Shown piece after piece: positions 36,312 to 43,584 of a stretch of DNA of 64,000 bases; position 1 is the first letter of the stretch, and each line of letters begins with the position of its first letter. Position numbers and translations under genes: made by a program. The DNA comes from Streptomyces sp. NBC_01116. GTDB taxonomy: Bacteria > Actinomycetota > Actinomycetes > Streptomycetales > Streptomycetaceae. The DNA lies in NCBI RefSeq assembly GCF_041435495.1, contig NZ_CP108644.1, forward strand, positions 2,294,001 through 2,358,000, given 5' to 3'. The notes below the pieces were generated by a model. That model did no database searches and had not been told where the DNA came from. It saw only the letters and a program-made list of their open reading frames with translations.

Positions 36312-37358
36312 ATGACGCAGCTGACGCAGGTGACCGACCACGGCGGGGGCGTCCACAGCATCAAGGTCCCCATCCCCGACAACCCGTTGGGCCACACCCT
36401 GGTCCACCTCGTCGACACCGACCGGGGGCCGGTCCTCATCGACACCGGCTGGGACGACCCGGCCTCCTGGGAGACCCTGGTCGCGGGGCTGACCGCCCTC
36501 GGCACCGCCGTCGCCGACATCCACGGCGTCGTCATCACCCACCACCATCCCGACCACCACGGTCTCTCCGGCCAGGTCCGCGAGGCGTCCGGGGCCTGGA
36601 TCGCGATGCACGAGGCCGACACCGCGATCGTCCGGCGTACCCGGGAGTCCGAGCCCGGCACCTGGCTCGACTACCTCACCCGGAAGCTCGCCGCGGTCGG
36701 CGCGCCGGAGGAACACCTCGCCCCGTTGCGCGCCGCCCGCACCGGAGGGCGGCTGCGGACCCTGCCGGGTCTGCGCGCCGCCCTGCCCGACCGGGAGATC
36801 GTCCCCGGCGAGCTGCTCGACCTCGCCGGGCGGCGGCTGCGGGCCGTCTGGACCCCCGGACACACCCCGGGGCACGTCTGCCTCCATCTGGAGGAGCGGC
36901 ATCCGGCGGACCTGGCGGGGCACGGGCGGTTGTTCTCCGGCGACCACCTGCTGCCCGGGATCAGTCCGCACATCGGGCTGTACGAGGACCCCGACGACAC
37001 GACGGTCACCGATCCCCTCGGCGACTACCTCGCCTCGCTGGAGCGGATCGGCCGGCTCGGGGTCGCCGAGGTGCTGCCCGCGCACCAGTATGCGTTCACC
37101 GACGCGGGCGGGCGGGTGCGGGAGCTGCTGGACCACCACGAGGAGCGGCTGACCGGGCTCCTCGCACTGCTCGCCACGCCTCTCACCCCGTGGCAGCTCG
37201 CGGAGCGGATGGAGTGGAACCGGCCCTGGGAGCAGATCCCGCACGGCTCGCGGTCCATCGCCGTCTCCGAGGCCGAGTCCCATCTGCGGCGGCTCGTGAA
37301 GCTCGGCCGCGCGGAGGCCGTGCCGGGCGGGCCCCCGGTGACGTACACCGCCGTCTGA
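36312..37358 (+). CDS. MBL-fold metallo-hydrolase
   Basis: A 348-residue metallo-beta-lactamase-fold enzyme. The zinc signature THHHPDHHG (His77, His79, Asp81, His82) is followed by WTPGHTPGHVCLHL, GRLFSGDHLLPG (bridging Asp) and LPAHQ near residue 256. The C-terminal 90 residues form a helical wing (HHEERLTGLLALLATPLTPWQLAERM) typical of the GloB/LACTB2 subgroup. This group hydrolyses thioesters, lactones or nucleic acids. A KstR-like operator in its promoter favours a CoA-thioester role in sterol catabolism (inference). It is divergent from the aldehyde dehydrogenase-ferredoxin pair. Confidence 0.88.
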   Translation: MTQLTQVTDHGGGVHSIKVPIPDNPLGHTLVHLVDTDRGPVLIDTGWDDPASWETLVAGLTALGTAVADIHGVVITHHHPDHHGLSGQVREASGAWIAMHEADTAIVRRTRESEPGTWLDYLTRKLAAVGAPEEHLAPLRAARTGGRLRTLPGLRAALPDREIVPGELLDLAGRRLRAVWTPGHTPGHVCLHLEERHPADLAGHGRLFSGDHLLPGISPHIGLYEDPDDTTVTDPLGDYLASLERIGRLGVAEVLPAHQYAFTDAGGRVRELLDHHEERLTGLLALLATPLTPWQLAERMEWNRPWEQIPHGSRSIAVSEAESHLRRLVKLGRAEAVPGGPPVTYTAV

Positions 37359-37439
37359 CGTCCGGCCCCTCCGTGGCCCGCGCCCCGGTGACGTACATCG
37401 CGACGTGCAGCTCACGGCCCCTCCGCTACGGACCGGTAG

Positions 37440-37655
37440 AGTGGGCAGGTCGTCATCATGCCCGTACAGGGGGAAGCCGGTGCGAATCCGGCACAGTGCC
37501 CCAGCCGTGACCCGTCGTCCGTCCGACGGCAGCCGGACCGCCCTCCGCGGAGCGTGACCGGCTCGGGCCGCCGGAACCCCGGTGGCCGGCACCGTCGAGG
37601 CATACGGGGCCGGAGCCCGGGGCCGCCCTCGTGCGCCCGGGAAGTCCGGCCCTCG
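37440..37655 (+). ncRNA. Cobalamin (B12) riboswitch
   Basis: The leader contains the conserved core GGGGAAGCCGGTGCGAATCC, then GGCACAGTGCCCCAGCCGTGA. After variable stems it ends in a B12-box-like segment, CCGGGAAGTCCGGCC at about 37637-37651, just before the first gene's ribosome site. Cobalamin binding would hide that site (GCAGGAGAGG), so the following operon should be repressed by cobalamin. Exact ends are estimates. It fills the 317-base gap between the MBL and toroid protein genes. Confidence 0.85.
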
Positions 37656-37675
37656 CAGGAGAGGCCCAGCCAGCC

Positions 37676-38926
37676 ATGACCGTACGCCGCAGCGCAGCCG
37701 CGCTCGCGACCACCGCCGTGCTCCTGGGCGCGGCCGCACCTGTAGCGGTCGCCGCGCCGAGTCCCTCCCCGTCGGCGGAGCTGCCCGCCGGGCTCTACGG
37801 CAGCACGGACCCCACCTACGACGGGGTGTGGCGGCAGTCGCTGGCCTTCCTCGCGCAGAAGATCGAGTACGTCACGCCGTCCACCGCGGCCGTCGACTGG
37901 CTGGTGGGCCAGCAGTGCGGCAGCGGGGCGTTCACCTCGTACCGGGACGCCGCCAAGCCCTGCGACGCGTCGACCGTGATGGACACCAACGCCACCGCCG
38001 TCGCCGTGCAGGCCCTCGTCGAGATCAACCAGCACCGCGACGCCGCGAACAACGGCGCGGACTGGCTGAAGTCCGTGCAGAACGAGGACGGCGGCTGGGG
38101 CTACAACCCCGGCAGCCCGAGCGACGCGAACTCCACGTCCATCGTCGTCGGCGCGCTCGCCCGGACCGGGATTCCGATCAACGAGGTCACCACCGCCGAC
38201 GGGAAGACCCCGTACACCGCGCTCCAGTCCCTGGCCATCCCCTGCGGGGACGAGGACGGCGGCGCGTTCGCCTACCAGCCGGGCAAGAAGGGCGAGCTGA
38301 CCGCCAACCTGGACGCCACCGCGGCCTCGGTGCTCGGTCTGATGGGCAAGGGCATCGCCTCCGGCACGTCCAACGCGGTCAAGGCCCCCTCCTGCACGGA
38401 GGGCGACGACCTCAGCCCGGAGCAGACCGCCCAGAACGGCTCCTCGTTCCTCGCGGACACCCTGAAGAAGTCGCCGTACCTGGAGCAGCCCCCGATGCCG
38501 GGCGCCGAGGACACCGAGCCGCAGCCCGACTACGGCAACACCGCGGACGCGGTCGTCGCGCTCGCCGCCTCCGGTCACACGGACCGGGCCGAGGCCTCCG
38601 TCGCCTGGCTGCAGAAGAACGCCACGGGCTGGGCGAAGCAGGGCGGCCCGGCCGCCACCGCGCAGCTGATCCTCGCGGCGCACGCCACCGGCGCGGACGC
38701 CCGCGCCTTCGGCGGCGTCGACCTCGTCAAGCAGCTCAACACGATGGGCCCCTCCCCGGCCGCCACCGCCCTCCCCTCGCCCACGCCGACCGGGCCGCAG
38801 CCCTCCAGCGGCACCAGCAGCGACGACAGCGGACTGGGTCTCGGGTGGCTGATCGGCATCGGCCTCGTCTTCGGCGCGGGCATCGGATTCGTGCTCAGCA
38901 TGCGGCGGAAGAAGCAGCAGCCGTGA
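37676..38926 (+). CDS. Secreted, membrane-anchored toroid protein, transcobalamin-like
   Basis: A 416-residue protein. It has a signal peptide (RRSAAALATTAVLLGAAAPVAVAA), then an alpha/alpha-toroid domain of prenyltransferase/terpene-cyclase-type repeats: AVDWLVGQQCGSGAF, NGADWLKSVQNEDGGWGY, EDGGAFAYQPGKKG and SVAWLQKNATGWAKQGG. A Pro/Ser/Thr linker, one membrane helix (LGWLIGIGLVFGAGIGFVLSM) and a basic RRKKQQP end follow, so the domain sits outside the membrane. The same fold forms animal intrinsic factor and transcobalamin, and the gene follows a cobalamin riboswitch, so it may capture cobalamin or a related corrinoid for the ECF transporter (inference). ATG 37676 gives the complete signal peptide. 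The end overlaps the next gene (GTGA). Confidence 0.82.
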   Translation: MTVRRSAAALATTAVLLGAAAPVAVAAPSPSPSAELPAGLYGSTDPTYDGVWRQSLAFLAQKIEYVTPSTAAVDWLVGQQCGSGAFTSYRDAAKPCDASTVMDTNATAVAVQALVEINQHRDAANNGADWLKSVQNEDGGWGYNPGSPSDANSTSIVVGALARTGIPINEVTTADGKTPYTALQSLAIPCGDEDGGAFAYQPGKKGELTANLDATAASVLGLMGKGIASGTSNAVKAPSCTEGDDLSPEQTAQNGSSFLADTLKKSPYLEQPPMPGAEDTEPQPDYGNTADAVVALAASGHTDRAEASVAWLQKNATGWAKQGGPAATAQLILAAHATGADARAFGGVDLVKQLNTMGPSPAATALPSPTPTGPQPSSGTSSDDSGLGLGWLIGIGLVFGAGIGFVLSMRRKKQQP

Positions 38927-39702
38927 GGCGTACGCCGGTCCCGGCGCGGTCTCCCGCCGCCGCGCGGCCTCGGATTCCCGCCACCGTGCGACGGCGGGAT
39001 CCGCTCGTCGTTCTGCTGGCCGCCCTGGTCGCCGCCTCGGCCGTCCTGCTCGGCGCGGGCAGCGCCGAGGCCGCCGGTTACCGCTACTGGTCCTTCTGGG
39101 AGGGCAACGGCAAGAACTGGGAGTACGCCACCCAGGGGCCGTCGCTGCTGCGCCCGGACGACGGTGCGGTCCAGGGCTTCCGGTTCGCCGTGAGCGAGGA
39201 CTCGGGCGATGCCGCACAGCCGCGCCGCGCCCCCGACTTCGGGGCGATCTGCGCGGACACCCCGGCGAAGGACGGGCAGAAGCGGGTGGCGCTGGTGATC
39301 GACCCCGGTACGACGGCGGACGCCCCTGGCGGGGAGAAACCGCCCGCCCCGCGCACGGCCTGCGCGCAGGTCGCACCGGACGCCAGCAGCGCGGAGGCGC
39401 TCGCGGCGGTGGCGAAGCCGCTGCGGTACGACAGCAGCGCGATGCTCTGCGCGATCTCCGGCTACCCGAAGTCGGGCTGCGGCGAGCAGGTGTCCGGGGA
39501 GGACGGCAGTGCGAAGCCGTCCTCCCCTTCGGAGCCGTCCGCCCCCGCCGAGCCGTCCTCCTCTTCGGAGGCGGGTGACGCCTCGAAGCCGGCCGGGGAC
39601 GGAGACGGTGGCGGCGGTCCGTCCGTCGGGCTGCTCGTCGGTGTCGGCGCGGTCCTGCTGCTGGGCATCGCCGCCGTGGTCCAGGCCCGCCGCCGCCGGT
39701 GA
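38923..39702 (+). CDS. Exported membrane-anchored protein of the B12/ECF operon
   Basis: A 259-residue protein starting with GTG overlapping the previous stop. A hydrophobic segment (PLVVLLAALVAASAVLLGAG) after a basic start, ending AEAA, is the export signal. The outer domain begins GYRYWSFWEGNGKNWEYATQG and contains paired cysteines (ICADTPAK, TACAQVAP, LCAISGYPKSGCGEQV). An acidic Ser/Pro linker, one more helix (VGLLVGVGAVLLLGIAAVVQA) and RRRR close the protein. Its organisation mirrors the preceding protein, so the two may form one surface receptor. I do not recognise the domain beyond its recurrence next to actinobacterial ECF genes. The stop overlaps the EcfT start (GTGA). Confidence 0.78.
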   Translation: MRRTPVPARSPAAARPRIPATVRRRDPLVVLLAALVAASAVLLGAGSAEAAGYRYWSFWEGNGKNWEYATQGPSLLRPDDGAVQGFRFAVSEDSGDAAQPRRAPDFGAICADTPAKDGQKRVALVIDPGTTADAPGGEKPPAPRTACAQVAPDASSAEALAAVAKPLRYDSSAMLCAISGYPKSGCGEQVSGEDGSAKPSSPSEPSAPAEPSSSSEAGDASKPAGDGDGGGGPSVGLLVGVGAVLLLGIAAVVQARRRR

Positions 39703-40952
39703 CCGCCGCCCCCGCCCCGGCTCCGGCCCGGCTGCTGCGCCGTGCCCTGCACGCCCCCGAGGCGGACCGGGGCAACGCGCTTCCCGCCGGGGCGTGGTGG
39801 CTCTGGGCGCTGGGCCTGGCCACCGCCGCGTCCCGGACGACGAACCCCCTGCTGCTCGGGCTGCTGGTGGGCGTGGCGGGCTACGTGGTGGCGGCGCGGC
39901 GGACGGATGCGCCGTGGGCCCGCTCCTACGGCGCGTTCGTCAAGCTCGGGCTGTTCGTGGTGGCGCTGCGTCTGCTGTTCTCCGTCTTCCTCGGTTCGTC
40001 GATCCCCGGCACGCACACCGTGCTGACGCTGCCCGAACTGCCGCTGCCCGACTGGGCGCGGGGTGTGCGGATCGGCGGCCGGGTCACCGCCGAGCAGGTG
40101 GTCTTCTCGCTGTACGAGGGGATGAAGCTGGCCGCGCTGCTGATCTGCGTCGGCGCGGCGAACGCGCTGGCCAACCCGGCGCGGCTGCTGAAGTCGCTGC
40201 CCGGCGCGCTGTACGAGGCGGGGGTGGCCGTCGTGGTGGCCATGACGTTCGCGCCGAACATGGTGGCCGACGTGGTCCGGCTGCGCACCGCGCGCCGGCT
40301 GCGGGGTCGGCCGACCGGAGGTGTGCGGGCCGTGGCGCAGATCGGGCTGCCGGTGCTGGAGGGGGCGCTGGAGCGGTCGGTGGCGGTGGCTGCGTCGATG
40401 GACGCGCGCGGGTACGGGCGTACGGCGCAGGTCCCGGCCGCCGTCCGGCACACCACGAACGTCCTCACCCTGGGCGGGCTGCTCGGGGTGTGCGCCGGCA
40501 CGTACGGGCTGCTGGCCACGCAGGGGGCGGTGTACGGGCTGCCGCTGCTGCTGGCCGGTCTGGTCACGGCGATGGCCGGCCTGCGGCTCGGCGGGCGGCG
40601 CTCGGTGCGCACCCGGTACCGGCCGGACCGGTGGGGCGTTCGGGCCTGGCTGGTGGCGGGCTCGGGTGCGGCGGTCGCGGCGGCGATGATCTGGGCGGGC
40701 GCGGTGGATCCGGCGGCGATGCGCCCCGGTGTCGTGCCGCTGGTCGCGCCGGTGCTGCCGCTGTGGCCCGCAGCGGCGGTGCTGGTCGGGCTGCTGCCCG
40801 CGCTGGTCGCCCCCGTGCCGCCGGCCGCGTACGGGACCGGGAAGCCGTCCGCGCACAGAAACGGGCACGGGGACGGGCACAGAAATGGGCACCGGGACGG
40901 GAACGCGCACGGGGGCGGGAAACAGGCTCGTATCGGCAAGGAGCAGGCGTGA
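39699..40952 (+). CDS. ecfT: ECF transporter T component (EcfT/CbiQ family)
   Basis: A 417-residue membrane protein that couples the two ATPases to the substrate-binding S subunit. Hydrophobic segments occupy about residues 25-170 and 240-370. The coupling-helix signature MDARGYGRT (Ala-Arg-Gly type) lies near residue 234, after FAPNMVADVVRLRTARRLRGR. The C-terminus after about residue 380 is a repetitive His/Gly/Asp/Asn-rich tail, which is unusual and might bind metal. It is coupled by GTGA overlaps to the genes on both sides. Confidence 0.9.
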   Translation: MTAAPAPAPARLLRRALHAPEADRGNALPAGAWWLWALGLATAASRTTNPLLLGLLVGVAGYVVAARRTDAPWARSYGAFVKLGLFVVALRLLFSVFLGSSIPGTHTVLTLPELPLPDWARGVRIGGRVTAEQVVFSLYEGMKLAALLICVGAANALANPARLLKSLPGALYEAGVAVVVAMTFAPNMVADVVRLRTARRLRGRPTGGVRAVAQIGLPVLEGALERSVAVAASMDARGYGRTAQVPAAVRHTTNVLTLGGLLGVCAGTYGLLATQGAVYGLPLLLAGLVTAMAGLRLGGRRSVRTRYRPDRWGVRAWLVAGSGAAVAAAMIWAGAVDPAAMRPGVVPLVAPVLPLWPAAAVLVGLLPALVAPVPPAAYGTGKPSAHRNGHGDGHRNGHRDGNAHGGGKQARIGKEQA

Positions 40953-42709
40953 TCAGGTTCGAGCGGGTCTCCGTGCGGTACGAGGACGCGGAGCGCCCCA
41001 CGCTGTCCGGGGTCGACCTCACGGTCCCGGAGGGTGAACTCGTCCTGCTCGTCGGCCCCTCCGGTGTCGGCAAGTCGACTTTGCTGGGTACGGTCTCCGG
41101 GCTCGTCCCGCACTTCTCGGGCGGGCTGCTGTCGGGCCGGGTCACGGTGGGCGGCCGGGACACCCGCACGCACAAGCCCCGTGAACTGGCCGATCTGGTC
41201 GGCACGGTGGGCCAGGACCCGCTCGCGCACTTCGTCACGGACACCGTCGAGGACGAGCTGGCGTACGGCATGGAGTCGCTGGGGCTCGCCCCCGACGTGA
41301 TGCGCCGCCGGGTCGAGGAGACGCTCGATCTGCTGGGCCTGGCCGAGCTGCGCGACCGGCCGATCGCGACCCTGTCGGGCGGCCAGCAGCAGCGGGTGGC
41401 GATCGGCTCGGTGCTCACCCCGCACCCGAGGGTGCTGGTGCTGGACGAGCCGACCTCCGCGCTGGACCCGGCGGCGGCCGAGGAGGTCCTCGCGGTGCTC
41501 CAGCGGCTGGTGCACGACCTGGGCACGACCGTGCTGATGGCCGAGCACCGGCTGGAGCGCGTGGTGCAGTACGCGGACCAGGTCGTCCTGCTGCCCTCCC
41601 CGGGCGCCGCCCCCGTGATGGGGCCGCCCGCCGAGATCATGAAGGTGTCGCCCGTGCGGCCCCCGGTGGCCGAGCTGGGTCTGCTCGCGGGCTGGGACCC
41701 GCTGCCCCTGTCGGTACGCGACGCCCGGCGCGGGGCGGGCGGGCTGCGGGAGCGGCTCGCGGAGGTGTCACCGCCCCCGCCCCCGGGGGCGTCGGGAACG
41801 CCGGAGGTACCGGGAGTACCGGGGGCGCCGAGGGTGCCGGAGGCGACTGTTCCGGTCGTGGCCGGGCGGCCGCCGCGGACCGGCCGGTTCGCCCGGCTCC
41901 TGGGGCGCGGGGCCGGCGCCCCGGCCACCCCGGTCGCCCCCGCCGCCGATCCGGTCACCCGGGTCGACGGGCTCGGGGTGCGGCGCGGCCGGGTCGAGGC
42001 GCTGCGGCGGGTGACGCTCACCGTGGCGCCGGGCGAGACGGTGGCCCTGATGGGCCGCAACGGGGCCGGCAAGTCCACGCTGCTCGGCGCGCTCGTCGGC
42101 ATGATCGAGCCCACCTCGGGCACCGTGCGCGTCGGCGGCCTGGCCCCGGCCCGGACGGACCCGCGGGCGATGGTGCGCCGGGTCGGCCTCGTACCGCAGG
42201 AACCGCGCGATCTGCTGTACGCGGACACGGTGGCCGCCGAGTGCGCCGCTGCCGACCGGGACGCGGGCGCGGCGGAGGGTTCCTGCCGGGCGCTGGTGTC
42301 GGAGCTGCTGCCGGGCGTCGCGGACGACACCCACCCACGGGACCTCTCCGAGGGCCAGCGGCTCGCCCTGGCCCTGGCGCTGGTGCTGACGGGCCGCCCG
42401 CCGCTGTTGCTGCTGGACGAGCCGACGCGTGGTCTGGACTACGCGGCGAAGGGCCGGCTCGTCGGTGTGCTGCGCGGCCTGGCGGCCGAGGGGCACGCGA
42501 TCGTCCTGGCGACGCACGACGTGGAGCTGGCGGCGGAGTTGGCGCACCGGGTCGTGATCCTGGCCGAAGGGGAGGTCGTCGCGGACGGGCCGACCGGACA
42601 GGTGGTGGTCTCCTCGCCCGCGTTCGCCCCGCAGACGGCGAAGATCCTGGCCCCTCAGGAGTGGCTGACCGTGTCCCAGGTGCGCGGCGCGCTGGAGGCG
42701 GGCGCATGA
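40949..42709 (+). CDS. ecfA: ECF transporter ATPase, fused EcfA-EcfA'
   Basis: A 586-residue protein with two complete ABC ATPase domains in one chain. The first (about 1-250) has GPSGVGKSTLLGTVSG, the Q-loop VGQDPLAHFV, signature LSGGQQQRVAIG and Walker B VLVLDEPTSALDP. The second (about 340-585) has GRNGAGKSTLLGALVG, VPQEPRDLLY, the signature LSEGQRLALAL and LLLLDEPTRGLD. A Pro/Gly-rich linker of about 90 residues joins them. Most ECF systems use two separate proteins; the fusion is common in actinobacteria. The GTG at 40949 overlaps the EcfT stop; long in-frame upstream extension is spurious. Confidence 0.92.
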   Translation: MIRFERVSVRYEDAERPTLSGVDLTVPEGELVLLVGPSGVGKSTLLGTVSGLVPHFSGGLLSGRVTVGGRDTRTHKPRELADLVGTVGQDPLAHFVTDTVEDELAYGMESLGLAPDVMRRRVEETLDLLGLAELRDRPIATLSGGQQQRVAIGSVLTPHPRVLVLDEPTSALDPAAAEEVLAVLQRLVHDLGTTVLMAEHRLERVVQYADQVVLLPSPGAAPVMGPPAEIMKVSPVRPPVAELGLLAGWDPLPLSVRDARRGAGGLRERLAEVSPPPPPGASGTPEVPGVPGAPRVPEATVPVVAGRPPRTGRFARLLGRGAGAPATPVAPAADPVTRVDGLGVRRGRVEALRRVTLTVAPGETVALMGRNGAGKSTLLGALVGMIEPTSGTVRVGGLAPARTDPRAMVRRVGLVPQEPRDLLYADTVAAECAAADRDAGAAEGSCRALVSELLPGVADDTHPRDLSEGQRLALALALVLTGRPPLLLLDEPTRGLDYAAKGRLVGVLRGLAAEGHAIVLATHDVELAAELAHRVVILAEGEVVADGPTGQVVVSSPAFAPQTAKILAPQEWLTVSQVRGALEAGA

Positions 42710-43584
42710 GCGAGAAGGAGGCCGGCGTCCGGCAGCGGGTGGCCCGGCCCGTGCGGCTCGGGCCGAAGTCGGTCGCCGTCCTGCTGCTGACCGGGGCCGT
42801 CGGGGTGGTCGCCTTCGGATGGCCGCTGCTGGCGGACGCCGGGTCCGGGCTCGCGCACGCGCAGGACGCGCCCTGGCTGTTCGCGGCGCTGCTGCCGCTG
42901 CTCGTCGCGGTGGTGGTGGCGACGATCTCCGAGTCCGGCATGGACGCGAAGGCCGTCGCGATGCTCGGGGTGCTGGCGGCGGTCGGGGCGGCGCTGCGCC
43001 CGCTGGGAGCGGGGACGGCGGGCCTGGAGCCGATGTTCTTCCTGATGGTGCTGAGCGGCCGGGTGCTGGGGCCCGGCTTCGGCTTCGTCCTCGGCTCGGT
43101 GACCATGTTCGCCTCGGCGCTGCTGACCGGCGGAGTGGGGCCGTGGATGCCGTTCCAGATGCTGTCGATGGGCTGGTTCACCATGGGCGCGGGGCTGCTG
43201 CCGGGGGCGGACCGGCTGCGCGGGCGGGCGGAGTTGGCGATGCTGGCGGTGTACGGCTGCGTGGCGGCGTTCGCGTACGGCACGGTGATGAATCTTCAGG
43301 GCTGGGTGCTCGTCAACGGGCTGCATTCGGGCATCTCGTTCGACGAGGGCGCCCCGCTGCACGAGAACCTGGTGCGGTTCCTCGCCTACTGCGCGGCGAC
43401 CTCGCTGGGCTGGGACCTGGGGCGGGCGGTGCTGACGGTGGTCCTGACCCTCACGCTCGGCCCGACGCTGCTGAAGGCGCTGCGCCGGGCCACCCGTCGC
43501 GCCGCCTTCGACGCGCGTGCCGTGTTCGGGGAGCCGGAGGAGCCCGGGAAGCGGCCCGTGGGGACCACCCCGGGCCCCCCGTGA
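42706..43584 (+). CDS. ECF transporter S component, probable cobalamin/corrinoid specificity
   Basis: A 292-residue membrane protein with about six or seven helices: SVAVLLLTGAVGVVAFGWPLL, WLFAALLPLLVAVVVATI, AVAMLGVLAAVGAALRP, then EPMFFLMVLSGRVLGPGFGFVLGSVTMFASALLTGGVGPWMPFQ, the conserved ligand-side region of ECF S proteins. The short hydrophilic N-terminus and basic C-terminus are normal. Placement behind a cobalamin riboswitch and with its own T and A subunits indicates a dedicated importer for cobalamin or a precursor. The start overlaps the EcfA stop (ATGA), and it ends 15 bases before the convergent thiolase gene. Confidence 0.88.
   Translation: MSEKEAGVRQRVARPVRLGPKSVAVLLLTGAVGVVAFGWPLLADAGSGLAHAQDAPWLFAALLPLLVAVVVATISESGMDAKAVAMLGVLAAVGAALRPLGAGTAGLEPMFFLMVLSGRVLGPGFGFVLGSVTMFASALLTGGVGPWMPFQMLSMGWFTMGAGLLPGADRLRGRAELAMLAVYGCVAAFAYGTVMNLQGWVLVNGLHSGISFDEGAPLHENLVRFLAYCAATSLGWDLGRAVLTVVLTLTLGPTLLKALRRATRRAAFDARAVFGEPEEPGKRPVGTTPGPP

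Follow-up and report, generated by a model that had tools for sequence, protein, structure and literature searches.

The window analysed here, a 64,000-nucleotide stretch spanning contig positions 2294001-2358000 in the 8.74-Mb genome of Streptomyces sp. NBC_01116, carries a five-gene operon on the + strand (37676-43584) in which each start overlaps the preceding stop by 4 bases. The first gene (37676..38926) encodes an exported, membrane-anchored alpha/alpha toroid protein of 416 aa that belongs to the SCO2321 family (NF053823, 559.3 bits against a curated cut-off of 300). The second (38923..39702, GTG start) encodes an exported, membrane-anchored protein of 259 aa that belongs to the SCO2322 family (NF040672, 233 bits against a curated cut-off of 85). 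The NCBIfam names SCO2321_fam and SCO2322_fam come with no function attached. The remaining genes encode an EcfT transmembrane coupling protein (39699..40952), a fused double ECF ATPase, A-A' (40949..42709), and an ECF S component (42706..43584), all on the + strand. A cobalamin-type leader RNA precedes the operon. A short way 5' of the operon, likewise on the + strand, is a gene for a Strvi_7410-family MBL-fold hydrolase (36312-37358). The toroid protein is present in 125 of 150 sampled Streptomycetaceae genomes, and the SCO2322 gene lies directly 3' of the SCO2321 gene at all 30 orthologous loci (30/30).

The transporter is a complete one, as the original prediction had it. Its S component matches PF12822 (32.9 bits, cut-off 30.7), and its ATPase, with two ABC domains, matches the ECF_ATPase_2 and cbiO families, the latter at 258 bits. 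EcfT is recognized by a sub-threshold match to PF02361 CbiQ (E 9e-4), by a weak match to the EcfT chains of solved ECF transporters and by its position between the beta and ECF ATPase genes, which is kept across the cassette loci described below. No model searched assigns a substrate to the S component, and a single-sequence search against solved ECF S chains gave no match.

The SCO2321 protein starts with a signal-peptide-like segment, and its AlphaFold2 model (mean pLDDT 81.8, about 95 over residues 45-360) shows the paired helices of an alpha/alpha toroid over residues about 45-360 (37808..38755, +). A C-terminal membrane helix follows at residues 392-410 (38849..38905, +), seen both in the model and as a hydrophobic stretch followed by RRKK. 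An exported, anchored toroid as first product had been predicted, and so it is. It had also been called built like intrinsic factor and transcobalamin; the fold stands, but the likeness is not specific, since squalene-cyclase and TED toroids match better than PF01122 (Cobalamin_bind). Squalene-hopene-cyclase-type toroids are the best solved folds among the matches listed (Z 23.6, rmsd 3.0 over 257 residues), other close ones are glycosidases, and transcobalamin is not among the best 50 structural matches. Sequence searches of solved structures returned squalene cyclases, prenyltransferases and complement TED domains, and never transcobalamin. PF01122 does not match the window protein at E 0.1 and is found at E <= 1 in only 5 of 22 toroid homologues, with a best E of 0.087. 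The toroid alone is therefore no evidence of transcobalamin kinship.

The order of the toroid is altered relative to its relatives. Aligned with ten toroids from other Actinomycetota, the native SCO2321 profile matches as two pieces in swapped order, residues 50-234 on template positions 162-339 and residues 250-358 on 36-144, with scores of about 195.6-198 and 106.8-108. The rotated profile aligns in one piece (289.7 over 278 columns) and is the better one in 90 of 92 toroid sequences. Repeat ambiguity was rejected as the source of this pattern because the off-diagonal self-match of the profile reaches only 49.4, far below the scores of the swapped pieces (about 198 and 108). By these alignments, the SCO2321 toroid is circularly permuted with respect to its counterparts elsewhere in Actinomycetota; the Streptomyces order is also found in one relative, L078.

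The second exported, anchored and cysteine-containing product was likewise correctly foreseen. The SCO2322 protein begins with a hydrophobic segment, followed by an ectodomain of 140 residues in which four cysteines are invariant (residues 51-190; 39073..39492, +). A linker rich in Ser and Pro then leads to a membrane helix at the C-terminus (AlphaFold2 helix 235-258; 39625..39696, +), on which the GPS-CTERM model scores 20.8 bits, below its cut-off of 28. The window protein matches no Pfam family at E <= 0.1, and thus not DUF4430 (PF14478). Its AlphaFold2 model is of low confidence (pLDDT 63.8) and has no usable structural neighbour in the PDB; the permutation is therefore argued from profile comparisons instead of this model.

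A profile of 29 SCO2322 orthologues matches proteins of other Actinomycetota as two pieces in swapped order, a result confirmed on the proteins themselves. When residues 117-190 are placed before 51-107, the rotated profile matches ten canonical-order domains in a single alignment of 105 columns (139.5, E 5.8e-25), where the native order gives two swapped pieces (82.5 and 62.6); in HMMER, rotated outscores native in 123 of 125 canonical domains. The ectodomain is, judged by profile comparison, a circular permutant of the canonical-order actinobacterial beta domains. These in turn lead to DUF4430, the Pfam domain at the C-terminus of transcobalamin (PMC4350170): the canonical beta set (125 sequences) aligns end to end with 18 actinobacterial DUF4430 domains over 90 columns (34.6, E 1.4e-5), and 100 column-shuffled versions reach at most 21.5. 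The direct match of the rotated SCO2322 profile to DUF4430 is weak (E 0.006), so the link, a distant homology recovered by profile-profile comparison, runs through the canonical-order intermediates. The transcobalamin signal of the operon lies in the second protein, not in the toroid; the original prediction missed this beta half and both permutations. DUF4430 domains are common in other actinomycetotal families, being over the cut-off in 51 of 296 genomes (L080-L109), and some sit in open frames of 1,000-1,900 codons.

The leader RNA, which had been described as a cobalamin riboswitch, lies at 37448..37557 (+) and resembles a short, AdoCbl-II-like aptamer. Rfam models at gathering scores find nothing across the window, and a weak-match search gives RF00174 at 37421-37533 with only 16.5 bits (cut-off 31.5). 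The covariance model R1, built from 19 Streptomyces orthologues with the window's own clade left out, matches 37448-37557 with 83.9 bits (E 3e-19), against 14 bits for its runner-up in the window. The element precedes the toroid gene by about 170-300 bases in 28 of 30 Streptomycetaceae orthologues, some of which are above the Rfam cut-off (RF00174 in L012, L013, L015, L017, L018, L020 and L036; RF01689 in L026), and the R1 score supports common descent of the window leader with them. Side observations come from other orthologues: in L014, L019, L023, L024 and L029 a CCCTGCCCC...-type insert, which may be an intergenic repeat element, seems to break up the aptamer, and in one (L030:1214-1272, 20.8 bits) the aptamer core is lost while the flanking leader sequence is kept.

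By homology to R1, the window element is a cobalamin-type leader by descent, and this part of the riboswitch claim stands; the score below the Rfam cut-off and a drifted core qualify it. Of 40 positions without variation among the 19 orthologues, the window copy differs at three, and all three fall within the CTGACCCGCA core. Its two closest relatives differ at 6 and 5 of these positions, the three CTGACCCGCA core changes among them. When each of the 19 other leaders is left out in turn, most show 0-2 such changes, one shows 3 and one 5. Because the drift affects core positions, the present B12 response of this leader is uncertain.

The same set of parts recurs well beyond Streptomycetaceae. 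Of 14 distant actinobacterial loci, 11 lie on a contig that continues, and genes for EcfT, ATPase and S come directly after the beta gene in 11/11 of these; the other three stop at a contig edge. The leader model matches 5' of the cassette at 13/13 loci tested, several with Rfam support. A scan of named genomes with a five-sequence beta alignment (a nine-sequence one was too diverse) yielded 74 loci in Micromonospora, Salinispora, Dactylosporangium, Nocardiopsis, Thermomonospora, Amycolatopsis, Crossiella, Kribbella, Streptomyces and others. EcfT lies 3' of the beta gene in 60/74, a toroid is present in about 59/74, and a leader RNA was found in 63 of the 66 loci searched (about E 1e-6 or better, in part with Rfam support); these loci were chosen by a beta query and so are not a random genome sample. 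Gene order varies: in eight Streptomyces cassettes (L157, L159, L160, L162, L163, L165, L166, L176) the sequence is leader, beta, EcfT, ATPase, S, with the toroid last, and in Micromonospora and Salinispora (L110-L129) the ECF genes come after two successive units, each with a leader of its own and a toroid, a beta gene or both, an arrangement suggestive of two receptor pairs for each transporter.

Single-chain beta+toroid proteins occur in the same kind of locus in Allokutzneria (L143), Crossiella (L145), Actinoalloteichus (L146) and Actinomadura (L170). In L069 a toroid is joined to a pair of beta-like units and to CWB2 repeats, which bind the cell wall; S-layer homology (SLH) domains are attached to the toroid of L075. 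Such fusions and anchors speak for joint action of toroid and beta on the outer side of the membrane.

Most of the distant cassette genomes combine a B12-dependent enzyme with a lack of corrin-synthesis markers. The B12-dependent methylmalonyl-CoA mutase is present in 13/13, and both CbiC and CobN are missing in 10/13, single gene absences being soft because these genomes are 84-98% complete. In 7 of the 10 genomes lacking CbiC and CobN, a full-length FecCD/BtuC-type permease was not found, with partial matches of <=28 bits or none. A PF06472 search for BacA-type importers gave nothing above cut-off, and PF06472 may not be the BacA family. As a reading of gene content, this auxotrophy pattern favours import of a ready-made corrinoid over that of cobalt or a lower ligand.

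The host differs in that it has CbiC, CobN and many FecCD permeases. Since it synthesizes the corrin ring itself, it has no obvious need of the cassette, and the operon would therefore serve salvage in this genome. Other Cbl-type leaders of the host precede genes for MetE, CobD, CobN, ribonucleotide reductase, an aldehyde dehydrogenase and two BtuF-like binding proteins. The host also has a second cassette (L066:11390-15997 and L184; contig about 523390-531000), made up of a leader RNA, a 928-aa beta-toroid-toroid protein, a beta protein, EcfT, double ATPase and S component. Divergent from it, under its own cobalamin-type leader, lies a gene for a single-chain exported toroid with a weak DUF4430-like tail (L066:9570-11219, - strand; 14.4 bits, below cut-off), the most transcobalamin-like layout in the host.

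Taken together, we put at roughly three in four the probability that the operon encodes a corrinoid importer in which a two-piece surface receptor feeds an ECF transporter. The SCO2321/SCO2322 pair probably works like transcobalamin, a statement about its action and not a claim of family membership. The receptor would stand on the outer face of the cytoplasmic membrane and import a corrinoid of the vitamin B12 type; the alpha/alpha toroid would come from SCO2321, and SCO2322 would contribute a distant homologue of transcobalamin's C-terminal beta-grasp domain, each chain being tethered by its own C-terminal membrane helix via a flexible Pro/Ser-rich linker. Toroid and beta domain are predicted to close on the corrinoid from both faces, as the transcobalamin domains do within one chain, and to hand it to the S component, with EcfT and the double ATPase driving its passage across the membrane. 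The leader RNA would lower expression when the cofactor is plentiful. What the sequences show is the gene content, the descent of the leader, the homology of SCO2322 to canonical-order beta domains, both permutations, the kept linkage and the cassettes in corrin-less genomes; that a corrinoid is the ligand, that the two chains bind it jointly, that it passes on to S and which way the regulation runs are what we infer. The cobalamin capture device of the original prediction thus finds good comparative support in the linkage of leader, toroid, beta and ECF genes, in the fusions, in the DUF4430-like beta domain and in the corrin-less genomes, but not in the toroid-based analogy to transcobalamin with which it was argued.

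A more specific version, in which the transcobalamin-type clamp is a heterodimer of two anchored circular permutants docking on a dedicated ECF transporter, stands at about even odds. That both halves are re-cut would point to a tandem fusion stage that released the split pair, a stage for which the host's 928-aa beta-toroid-toroid protein may serve as a comparison.

The ligand could differ from cobalamin. An S component without substrate assignment would allow cobinamide, another cobamide or a free lower ligand, and the importers CbrT and BtuCDF also take cobinamide (PMC5997447, PMC6593275); a second specificity would make sense in a host that already has BtuF-like proteins under Cbl-type leaders. 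This is nevertheless unlikely, and for a free lower ligand the genomes without ring synthesis, which need a corrin, speak against it; cobinamide or other cobamides would be a sub-case of the corrinoid receptor. It is distinctly improbable that the exported proteins bind no ligand at all, with an enzymatic or wall-attaching role for the toroid and a scaffold role for SCO2322 beside the ECF transporter. The closest solved toroids among the matches listed are indeed enzymes (squalene-hopene cyclase, glycosidases), and beta and ECF genes occur without a toroid detected nearby in Amycolatopsis (L180-L183) and L070; yet relatives carry beta+toroid fusions and extracellular anchoring domains, the host's second cassette has a beta-toroid-toroid protein, and transcobalamin holds B12 in a two-domain sandwich, as given in the account of Burroughs et al. 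(2007; PMC1796856). Cobalt import in the manner of CbiMNQO, with the exported proteins as metal-scavenging or accessory parts under B12 control, is very improbable and was rated low as a main role because cassettes also sit in corrin-less genomes: the ATPase matches cbiO and EcfT, weakly, CbiQ, and cobalt transporters can sit under Cbl riboswitches, as S. lividans cbiM does (PMC8079986), but the S component is PF12822, CbiM is not among the matches listed, the partners carry a DUF4430-like domain and a toroid and no known metal-scavenging fold, and cobalt would be useless for B12 synthesis in the 10/13 distant genomes that lack CbiC and CobN.

The corrinoid-importer reading places the operon beside several known systems. 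Animal transcobalamin, intrinsic factor and haptocorrin pair the same elements, an alpha/alpha toroid and a DUF4430-type beta-grasp-like domain, and the clamping of a corrinoid between the two is the predicted likeness. Their one-chain architecture is not found here: toroid and beta domain are encoded by two genes (fused in some relatives) and form separate anchored chains, both permuted relative to other actinobacterial forms and linked to an ECF transporter, and the toroid has no specific sequence kinship to PF01122. BtuG and BtuH work in a Gram-negative envelope with an outer-membrane transporter as partner, and to our knowledge are unrelated to SCO2321 and SCO2322. These surface lipoproteins of Bacteroides likewise provide surface-exposed B12 capture ahead of a transporter (PMC6143338, PMC8941943). 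ECF-type import in a B12-related gene context is also known from ECF-CbrT of Lactobacillus delbrueckii, evidence that cobalamin and cobinamide can enter through transporters of this class (PMC5997447); in contrast to it, the operon here is a dedicated module with a fused A-A' ATPase and two exported receptor-like chains.

The closest precedent comes from Burroughs et al. (2007), who defined the SLBB superfamily and, in the passages that concern such systems, described, chiefly for low-GC Gram-positives, operons in which transcobalamin-like beta-grasp domains with toroids are encoded together with CbiO/CbiQ, a set that they predicted to scavenge B12 (PMC1796856). Those systems likewise have an exported beta-grasp domain, a toroid and CbiO/CbiQ-type neighbours; the passages describing them mention neither Actinobacteria nor permutation. 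In the open-access papers searched we found no earlier report of an actinobacterial, split and permuted form, nor any paper that ties SCO2321-SCO2325 to B12; the one hit for these names concerns a peptide for transdermal delivery. The operon is an actinobacterial, two-chain, doubly permuted version of a predicted B12-scavenger type, and what it adds to that description, as given in those passages, is the link to a riboswitch, the division into two chains and the pattern of auxotrophy.

Two protein families without an assigned function gain a testable role in corrinoid uptake. A receptor known in animals as one chain may exist in bacteria as two anchored, re-ordered chains, and a small, riboswitch-marked cassette may serve as a tracer of B12 scavenging across Actinomycetota, including lineages without markers of corrin-ring synthesis and without a recognisable BtuC.
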